This document shows, piece after piece, positions 26,544-32,779 of a stretch of DNA of 64,000 nt. Each line of letters starts with the position of its first letter. The first letter of the stretch is position 1. Source of the stretch: an uncultured Flavobacteriales bacterium. Its GTDB lineage: Bacteria > Bacteroidota > Bacteroidia > Flavobacteriales_G > Salibacteraceae. The translations under genes and the position numbers were made by a program. The stretch lies in assembly GCA_943788775.1 (NCBI GenBank), contig CALSRO010000001.1:1-64000 (forward strand), read 5' to 3'. The notes below the pieces were generated by a model. The model was not told where the DNA came from and did no database searches. It saw nothing but the letters and a program-made list of their open reading frames with translations.

Positions 26544-28038
26544 ATGGCGAAATTGACGAAACGGGAGGATAATTATTCTCAATGGTATAATGAATTGGTT
26601 GTGAAGGCCGATTTAGCAGAGAATAGCGAGGTGCGTGGTTGCATGGTTATTAAGCCATACGGCTATTCCATTTGGGAAAAAATGCAAGCCGCTTTAGACA
26701 AGATGTTCAAGGACACAGGGCATTCTAATGCCTACTTCCCCCTGTTTGTGCCGAAGTCATTATTCGAGGCAGAGGAGAAGAATGCGGAAGGCTTCGCTAA
26801 GGAATGTGCCGTTGTTACCCACTACCGACTGAAAAATGATCCTAACAATAAGAGGCAAGCTCATTGTCGATGAAAACGCCAAACTTGGAGGAAGAGTTAA
26901 TTGTACGACCTACAAGTGAGGCGATTATTTGGAAGACGTATAAGAACTGGATTCAGTCATATCAGAGATTTACCGATTCTGGTCAATCAGTGGGCTAATG
27001 TTGTTCGATGGGAGATGCGAACGAGGCTATTTCTGAGAACTGCTGAGTTTTTATGGCAAGAAGGGCATACGGCTCATGCAACGAAAGATGAGGCAATCAC
27101 TGAAACCGAGCAAATGATTGGGGTGTATGCAAAATTTGCAGAGGAGTTTATGGCAGTTCCTGTCATTCAAGGTTTGAAAACGGAATCAGAAAGATTTGCT
27201 GGTGCAGAAGAGACATACTGTATTGAGGCCTTGATGCAAGATGGTAAAGGCCTTGCAGGCAGGTACAAGTCACTTTCTGGGACAGAACTTTCGCAAAGGC
27301 ATTTGATGTGAAATACACCACAAAAGAGGGGAAGCAAGAATTTGTGTGGGCCACAGTCATGGGGTGTGTCAACAAGATTGATAGGGGCTCTTGATGATGG
27401 CGCATTCAGATGATTTGGGCTTGGTTTTGCCTCCTAAATTGGCTCCAATACATGTGGTAATCGTGCCGATATATAAAGGATTAGAGCAATTGGATTCCAT
27501 TTCGAATGTTGCTCTTGATTTAAAAGCAAAGCTTCAAGACTTAGGGCTCAGTGTTAAATATGACGATCGTGACACACATAAGCCAGGGTTCAAGTTTGCA
27601 GATTATGAATTGAAAGGGAGTTCCTGTTCGGGTTGCCATTGGTCCAAAGGATCTTGAGAACGGCACAATTGAAATAGCCCGAAGAGATACATTGGAAAAA
27701 CAGCTGTGATAGCATTAGATGGCTCGGCTTCGATCACAGCGGAGCTTATGAATGAAATTCAAGATTAATATTTACAATCGAGCTTCTGAAGTTTCAGAAA
27801 AGTAATACACATGTCAGCGTTGATTCTTATGATGAATTTAAAGAATGTAATAGAGGGTAAAGGTGGCTTTGTAAGTGCTCATTGGGATGGTACATCTGAA
27901 ACGGAGGATCGAATTAAACTGGAAACTAAAGCAACCATCAGGTGCATTCCGTTGAATAATGCAAGTCTGGAGCCTGGGAAGTGCATAAGAACCGGGAAGC
28001 CTTCTATTCAGAGGGTGATTTTCGCAAAAGCTTATTAA
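26544..28038 (+). CDS. proS: Prolyl-tRNA synthetase, broken by about 12 single-base indels
   Basis: ProS charges tRNA(Pro) in the cytoplasm. Pieces in all frames match the short (about 490-residue) ProS type: [92 protein letters not shown], and [14 protein letters not shown] with KATIRCIPL at the C-terminus. Conserved reading is restored by removing one base at about 26853, 26887, 26963, 27249, 27292, 27356, 27391, 27617, 27765, 27791 and 27843, and adding one A in the run 27696-27700. That gives a net +10, predicting 494 residues. Few substitutions are apparent, which argues for sequencing error rather than decay. Confidence 0.9.
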
Positions 28039-28738
28039 ATGGGATCAATAGAAATGGAAAAATTGAAGCAAGTCAATTGTGGATAAGGCTGTACTCAAAC
28101 AAGATGTTTTTGCGTATAACCAAGGAATTATTTGAAGCGTTTAAAGACTGAAATAGGACTGATTATCCAATGAAATTCATGACTTCATTGCGCCAACTGA
28201 TGCACGTGTAGCTGTCGAATTTAAGACAACTGAGACACATGAAGTTTGTATGACAATGGCTGGAGACACCGTTGTGTTTCATATGCATACAAATGTGTTT
28301 GCATTTCCTGAGTCCCATATGATTCATAAAAGTCCCTATGTCTCTGGCAACCCGGCTAATGCATATTCTGGTATTATCAATGTCTACAACTTTTTAACGG
28401 ATTCCTATCGATTCCATCGAATCAACGACAGTGGTTACTTGGTAGGTCGAGATTTTTATAAATCGAGAAGGACACTTTTTTGTAGAAGGTCAGGGTCAGC
28501 TTGGATTTTTGTTTCGTGATTTTGCCACCAAGAGTCTTCGATAGTGAATCCATGCGAAGCGTAGTCCAAACAGCGCTTCAGCATGTTATTGATTTTGATT
28601 TGTACACTCCGCCATATCAGACAGTGCAAGGAAGTTTCTTTAGGAGACGTCCAAGCTCAAAGTCAAAGTCTAAGGCTGAAAACAGGCAAAAGACTTGGTT
28701 TTCAGTTTTCAAGAGATGAGGACGAGTTATCCTTCTAA
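28039..28738 (+). CDS. Conserved protein of unknown function after proS, frameshifted
   Basis: The ATG at 28039 directly follows the proS stop. Reading through several one-base insertions (about 28075, at least two between 28120 and 28180, 28451, 28539 and 28630) gives a protein of roughly 230 residues. It starts with a Lys/Glu-rich helix, then IHDFIAPTDARVAVEFKTTETHEVCM, a GDTVVFHMHTNVFAFPESH segment, YSGIINVYNFLTDSYRFHRI, GRIFINREGHFFVEGQG and DFDLYTPPYQTVQEVSLGDV. The corrected frame ends at TAA 28736-28738 with FSRDEDELSF, more plausible than the uncorrected stop at 28719. I do not recognise the family. No signal peptide is visible, so it is probably cytoplasmic. Confidence 0.65.
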
Positions 28739-28755
28739 AAAATATTACATCTTAC

Positions 28756-28785
28756 TTGCTTCAATTAAAGATATAATTACATTTG
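28756..28785 (+). promoter_or_regulatory. Promoter of tRNA-Glu and rpsT
   Basis: A -33 TTG at 28756-28758 is followed 19 bases later by TACATTTG at 28778-28785. This is the best Bacteroidota promoter match in the window. Transcription should start near 28791, about 16 bases before the tRNA. Confidence 0.72.
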
Positions 28786-31239: not shown

Positions 31240-32117
31240 GGATCAAATAGATGATCAGCGTTGGAATGAGTGTGTAAAAACAGTCTGCAAAATTTAGGCA
31301 TTATCCTTTGACATATTTTTTAGATGCGTGTTGTGAAGATTGGACTGCTTTAATTGGTGATGGCTACTCTTGGGTGTGGCCAATTCCTGTGAAGAAGAAA
31401 TTGTTCAACAAAGTTTATCAACCTCTTTTGGCCCAACAGTTGGGCCCAATTGGACAGAATGTGTCCATTCGGGATGTACAGGAGGGCCTTATTCAAATAG
31501 AAAAGAAGTATTGGGGCTATAACATTAAGTTCAATGAGGGAGTTAACGAGCTTTTATCGTATGTATCGGAACAGCATCGGAATATAGAGTTAGACATTCG
31601 TAATAGTTATGAAAAGTTGATCAAGGGGTATAAGCGGAATGCAGTTTCGAATATTAAAAAAGCCAGCAAATCCGATATAGAAGTTGTAAAGGTCGAGGGC
31701 TTTCAGACTGAAGTTATAGATATGTTTATCGCAGAGCGAGGTAAAGCATTAAAAGAATTGGATGAACGGTTTTATCTAGATGTGAAATCGATTTATAATT
31801 CATTTTTGAAAAGAAACGAAGCTGAAACGTGGTTAGCTAAGAGTCCGCAGGGAATTATTGCTGGGGTTATGATCTTAAATACAAATGGTCGTCTGCTAAA
31901 TTTTTTCACAGCAAGTGGGACTAAATCAAGATCAGTTGGTGCAATGCATTTGATTTTTGATACAATAATTAAGGAGTATTCTGGAAAAGCAGATGTTCTT
32001 GATTTTGAGGGAAGCAACAATGATAATTTGGCGTATTTCTATAAAAGTTTTGGGGGCGAGGAGCGGGTATATTTGCAGAATTATAAGAAGTGGAATATTC
32101 CATTTTTAAATCGTTGA
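31223..32117 (+). CDS. GNAT/FemAB-like acetyltransferase, one frameshift near its start
   Basis: The likely start is the ATG at 31223, giving MLLLNRDQIDDQRWNECVK, which overlaps the previous gene by 17 bases. One extra base between 31271 and 31291 then shifts to FRHYPLTYFLDACCEDW and the long frame from 31308. The C-terminal half has a GNAT-like or FemAB-like fold (ISNIKKASKSDIEV, AGVMILNTNGRLLNFFTASG, GAMHLIFDTIIKEY, DFEGSNNDNLAYFYKSFG). The substrate is not evident. Position between a deacetylase-like gene and upp gives no clear pathway. The repaired length is about 297 residues. Confidence 0.68.
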
Positions 32118-32118
32118 A

Positions 32119-32779
32119 ATGAAAAGACTGCATAATTTTTCGGATTCACCCTCAATTATAGATCACTATATGTGGCAATTGAGAGATGTTCAAATCCAGA
32201 AGGATCGTGATCGATTTCGTGAAAACGTGAGAAGGATTGGACGAGTTATAGGTTATGAAATAAGTAAGCATCTCAATTATAAAGAACAATCTATTCAAAC
32301 TCCATTGGCACAAATAAATGCAACGCGTTTTAGACGATAATGTTGTTTCAATAACTATTCTGCGGGCAGGATTGCCTTTGCACGAGGGAATTCTAGGTGC
32401 GATTCCAATGGCAGAAAATGGTTTTATTTCGGCTTACAGAAAGCATGACGATAGTGGAGATTTTAATATTGAAATTGGATATGTGGCCTGTCCTGATTTA
32501 ACGGATAAAGTTTTAATACTAAATGACCCGATGTTAGCAACTGGTAGCTCATTCGTTAATGCGCTTGAAGCCTTAAAGCCTTATGGTAAACCTAAATCTG
32601 TACACATTGCAGCGGTCATTGCAAGTCAAGATGGTGTGGACAACTTGATGAACACATTACCATCCGACATTTGTTTTTGGATTGGTGCAATAGATCCTGA
32701 ATTAGATCATAAAAAGTACATAGTGCCAGGATTGGGAGATGCTGGAGATTTGGCATTTGGAGAAAAAATGCAATCATGA
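32119..32779 (+). CDS. upp: Uracil phosphoribosyltransferase-like protein, one frameshift
   Basis: UPRT converts uracil and PRPP to UMP in pyrimidine salvage. The first frame (IIDHYMWQLRDVQIQKDRDRFREN) runs to 32340. Removing one base near 32326 joins it to the second frame with VSITILRAGLPLHEGIL, FISAYRKH, NDPMLATGSSFVNAL (the PRPP-binding loop; canonical DPMLATGGS, here with S for the second G) and YIVPGLGDAGDLAFG. The repaired protein has 219 residues, the usual length. It overlaps the downstream membrane-protein gene by 4 bases. Confidence 0.9.

Follow-up and report, generated by a model that had tools for sequence, protein, structure and literature searches.

We report that the burst of one-base indels at 26.85-32.33 kb of contig 1 in an uncultured Flavobacteriales genome assembly is, with a probability of about 0.96 as judged from the sequence, a patch of sequencing or assembly error that would represent no biological feature. 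The original prediction had preferred such an error to gene decay, and our analysis sides with it: no spare copies of the genes were found, proS is unbroken in 39 of 40 relatives and gene order is conserved in the five inspected, the codon pattern inside the patch is that of working genes, the neighbouring genes are clean and a second insertion-rich patch lies elsewhere in the assembly.

One-base insertions in a block of conserved genes

The window, that is, the whole stretch of DNA analysed, comprises the first 64 kb of contig 1 (280,781 bases); the whole assembly amounts to 3.11 Mb in 11 contigs, with a completeness of 94.65% and a contamination of 0.32%. A search with one conserved protein, from which records of the genome itself were possibly excluded, gave its best match (70% identity) in an uncultured Flavobacteriales MAG. 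The region of interest carries the following features:

26544-28038, + strand: proS (proline--tRNA ligase), spread over several frames; 11 insertions and 1 deletion relative to 12/12 genus orthologues
28039-28740, + strand: conserved unnamed gene (the 28039 gene); 5-8 insertions, 0-1 deletion
28807-28879, + strand: tRNA-Glu (TTC), intact
28893-29170, + strand: rpsT (ribosomal protein S20); whole domain readable in a single frame, which overruns the normal end
29190-29930, + strand: radC (UPF0758_N and RadC JAB domain); 3-5 frameshifts
29930-31240, + strand: DUF7033 gene (originally called deacetylase-like); 2-5 frameshifts
31200-32120, + strand: gene originally called GNAT-like, no Pfam match; 1 insertion with 11/11 relatives
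32119-32779, + strand: upp-type uracil phosphoribosyltransferase (UPRTase) family gene (PF14681); 1 insertion with 10/10 relatives
26850-32330, no strand: the whole putative error patch; 28 events, each shared by half or more of the relatives aligned, between clean flanking genes

Each gene was aligned as protein to DNA, tolerating one-base shifts, against the orthologues of 10-12 genomes of the same genus. For proS, all 12 relatives (74-82% identity) yield the 11 insertions and 1 deletion of the original prediction; the resulting path is free of stops, which counts for less given that the aligner penalises them. The adjoining 28039 gene, which encodes about 230-250 amino acids and is present in all 12 genus relatives, shows 5-8 insertions, 10 of the 12 giving 7 or 8; a Pfam search with one relative's intact copy gave no match. 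Against 11 relatives each, radC has 2-5 insertions and 0-1 deletion, and the DUF7033 gene carries 2-4 insertions plus 0-2 deletions. The single insertions in the so-called GNAT-like gene and in upp are called with every relative aligned (11 and 10, respectively), the former gene showing an additional deletion with 2 of its 11. Single stops along the path occur in 1/11 DUF7033 and 2/11 GNAT-like alignments. The block is therefore frameshifted where close relatives carry intact orthologues, as is seen in assembly patches.

Seven consecutive protein genes had been described as broken. Six of them are indeed shifted, whereas rpsT is nearly undamaged: a single frame covers the S20 domain (profile positions 1-82 of 83), and the loss is limited to the end, where reading continues to 162 aa rather than the expected ~83 and enters the N-terminal domain of radC, a shift being called there with 3 of 12 relatives. 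Two of the earlier labels find no support by name in Pfam, which assigns no family to the "GNAT" gene and DUF7033 to the "deacetylase". The tRNA inside the patch is intact, as had been stated, and is the one tRNA that an Rfam search gave in the window.

The indels are confined to a bounded patch

Counting only calls shared by half or more of the relatives aligned, we find 28 events in 24 clusters between ~26.8 and 32.3 kb (the rpsT cluster stemming from a single alignment), in line with the 25 or more one-base indels, mostly insertions, that had been proposed at 26.85-32.33 kb. Their density falls toward upp as described, with 20 of the 28 lying before 29.0 kb. Across the seven gene groups of the patch, 68 alignments gave 328 calls (299 insertions and 29 deletions). 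Outside it, 247 alignments of 34 gene groups, which span 39.6 kb of the part from 1.45 to 48 kb, gave 41 calls that are balanced in sign (20 insertions and 21 deletions). This latter rate is similar to that of a control in which relatives were aligned with relatives for seven genes (144 calls over 816 pairs, the genes ranging from 0 to 0.25 calls per pair). Tight clustering between clean flanks, another mark of an assembly patch, is thus what the alignments give.

Three weak clusters appear outside the patch, with calls in 1/2, 3/7 and 2/3 alignments, each within ~80 bases of a gene end. The last part of the window, 48-64 kb, was judged by open-frame coverage alone, which is 0.934 (ORFs of at least 100 aa). 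The "one comparable lesion" suspected elsewhere in the 64 kb was found neither in the 34 gene groups at 1.45-48 kb nor in the open-frame coverage of 48-64 kb.

Association with homopolymers is mild: with approximate positions, a run of at least 3 occurs within a 15-base neighbourhood of 79% of the 24 clusters, against a background of 60% for the flanks and 63% for the patch itself. A DNA search of the assembly with this region turned up no duplicate of it, the secondary matches being two short ones (44 and ~40 bases), and repeat collapse was rejected on this basis.

A home-made coding-frame HMM was also tried and dropped for counting, as it mixed up the patch with ordinary gene overlaps, although its direction matches that of the alignments. 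At its strictest setting, the patch received 1 shift, the remaining window 0 and a set of 20 other stretches 31. At two looser settings the patch received 12 and 17 shifts, or 2.2 and 3.1 per kb, as against 203 and 315 for the 458.5 kb examined elsewhere, or 0.44 and 0.69 per kb, those within the window lying mostly at gene ends.

A second insertion-rich patch on contig 5

We screened 40 other stretches of the assembly (790 kb) by open-frame coverage, a measure blind to isolated single indels; the stretches were spaced by hand, and one (L185) was picked to extend another (L164). Gaps of at least 900 bases lacking any open frame of 150 codons were seen in 11 of the 40. One of these holds a further patch (L163:9700-12600, corresponding to ~509.7-512.6 kb of contig 5), with 9 insertions and 1 deletion relative to one relative; on the loosest HMM setting stretch L163 likewise showed 16 shifts in 5.5 kb. 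The patch breaks four adjacent genes, of which two are ETF genes, one is for a bifunctional nuclease and one for a 430-residue protein. The ETF alpha gene has 4 insertions with 9/9 relatives, and the next ETF gene 2 insertions and 1 deletion with 8/9 (2 and 2 with the remaining one); the nuclease gene has 2 insertions with 8/9 relatives (3 with the remaining one), and the 430-residue protein gene 1 insertion with 7/7. ETF alpha is open in 9 of the 10 genus genomes searched, the tenth having no match, and no further place with ETF genes was found in the genome, the broken pair being the only ones found.

The neighbours of this second patch are nearly clean, with a few stray single calls besides those in a poorly conserved gene at L163:6725-7640, where an insertion is called with 5/9 relatives, a deletion with one and nothing with three. 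Recurrence at an unrelated place, which assembly patches may show, is hence seen once among the 40 sampled stretches. As two unrelated loci share the same insertion excess, the sequence data appear to be at fault rather than the organism.

Among the other gapped stretches, three hold small intact genes: L191 (SSB, 23S-IVP), L193 (SET, PRA-PH) and L194 (MscL). L191 also has a DUF805 RNA family match at 2366-2435, among the small genes. The gaps in L152, L155, L156, L159, L164, L190 and L200 could represent additional patches, small genes or stretches of non-coding DNA; in L159, CIA30 is matched over positions 1-105 of 157. Because these seven stretches may hide further patches, two is the minimum for the assembly. 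An Rfam search of the 11 flagged stretches found no rRNA. Low open-frame coverage proved a poor flag for patches when used by itself, since three gaps turned out to be small intact genes and L151 a giant open frame. The latter, on contig 2 (L151:3-10304), runs uninterrupted for at least 3,434 codons and extends beyond the sampled stretch.

Spare copies and selection in the patch genes

If the seven-gene block were in real, recent decay, the functions of proS and rpsT would have to come from copies absent from the assembly. We consider this very unlikely. The frames are broken in the assembly as it stands, and at 94.65% completeness a few percent of the genome could be absent. The block nevertheless contains proS and rpsT, for which no second copies were found. 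The original prediction had proposed a genome search for further copies of proS, rpsT and upp; our family searches of this assembly covered these (upp through the UPRTase family) as well as radC, and returned no additional copy above the cut-off. rpsT and radC each occur in a single place, and the only UPRTase matches above the cut-off are the two broken pieces. The ProS family search gave the broken pieces together with weaker matches on contigs 4 and 5, which have open frames of their own and are likewise hit by the class II synthetase core family. proS is essential, and a cell without it is unable to make proteins; decay would consequently require a copy in the missing few percent of the genome.

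In relatives, a ProS above the family cut-off and without internal stop is kept in 39 of 40 genomes, including all 12 of the genus, the exception (G035) having weak ProS matches only. In the five genus relatives inspected, gene order is conserved and the frames are open. Genes are thus hit regardless of function, single-copy essential ones included (the essentiality of proS being established knowledge), and within the assembly they are neither dispensable nor covered by a paralogue, although a copy could lie in the missing part of the genome.

Selection was gauged by the share of differences that fall at third codon positions, which is 0.45-0.67 in six patch genes (rpsT excluded). Two relatives compared over these genes give 0.44-0.74, and seven flank genes 0.42-0.75. 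The six genes as a group show no clear excess of the first- and second-position changes that relaxed selection would bring; proS alone, at 0.66-0.67, falls slightly short of the 0.74 of its reference pair, a small point on the side of decay that substitution errors, misplaced codons near the shifts or mild decay would each produce. Some 28 indels combined with an otherwise working-gene codon pattern are the wrong mix for neutral decay, and the unrelated block with the ETF genes shows the same pattern.

Alternatively, the indels could be present in the DNA and tolerated by recoding, through frameshifting or transcript editing, as the persistence of protein-level conservation across the shifts might suggest. 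This explanation is the least credible of those we weighed: among resolved stretches the shifts are limited to the two patches, the other 34 gene groups of the window lack agreed shifts, the giant open frame on contig 2 is uninterrupted over its at least 3,434 codons, and the genus orthologues need no recoding (shown for proS). More generally, were the indels real, the lineage would just have lost a block with its only proS and rpsT and would be surviving by unassembled copies or by an undescribed way of decoding across shifts, which we regard as extremely improbable.

Possible origin of the error

Taking an error in the data as the preferred reading, we infer read coverage, platform and the faulty step from the assembled sequence, and the "unpolished long-read" origin put forward originally would be one way to account for the error. 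Thin long-read coverage has about an even chance of being the specific cause. Under this scheme, ~5.5 kb would rest on one or few noisy, insertion-prone long reads and a later correction step would have missed them, leaving ~0.5% of bases (~1% in the first 2 kb) as spurious one-base insertions, while the cell's own genes would be intact. Insertions are the main error type of single-pass PacBio reads, and indel mutation in bacteria is biased toward deletion; the insertion excess would fit such reads. The accessible part of one further source contains nothing on insertion bias (PMC8495745).

The error may instead have arisen at another step, such as the filling of a scaffold gap with raw long reads or a failure of short-read polishing; this version of the same reading is a serious contender, if a somewhat less probable one. 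Both patches are interior, with clean genes on either side, the GC content is ordinary, so that we see no compositional reason for a drop in coverage, and apart from the two short secondary matches there is no repeat to explain a break. The two origins are separable only by reads, and the declining density of events suits thinning coverage slightly better.

Implications and comparison with known cases

As biology the patch is of little interest; its value is as a caution on the assembly. The completeness and contamination scores do not reveal the split proS and ETF genes, so claims of gene loss or pseudogenes at these loci made from this assembly would most likely be false. Some marker genes scored as missing may be merely frameshifted.

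Clusters of bacterial pseudogenes likewise combine frameshifts in adjacent genes; here, by contrast, there is no clear relaxed selection and single-copy essential genes are affected. Closer parallels come from assembly work. In a set of long-read MAGs from lakes, ORFs fragmented by uncorrected indels were common in most genomes below 10x short-read coverage (PMC9426551). That pattern is per genome and from Nanopore data, whereas ours lies within a single genome. Truncated predicted proteins serve as a yardstick of assembly error (PMC13087279, PMC12007338), and the indel errors of long-read assemblies scored in this way by IDEEL or Kastor resemble ours in that one-base indels truncate proteins relative to intact orthologues (PMC12007338, PMC13087279). 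What sets the present case apart from such errors is the concentration of indels in bounded patches, with a strong insertion bias and a mild homopolymer signal.
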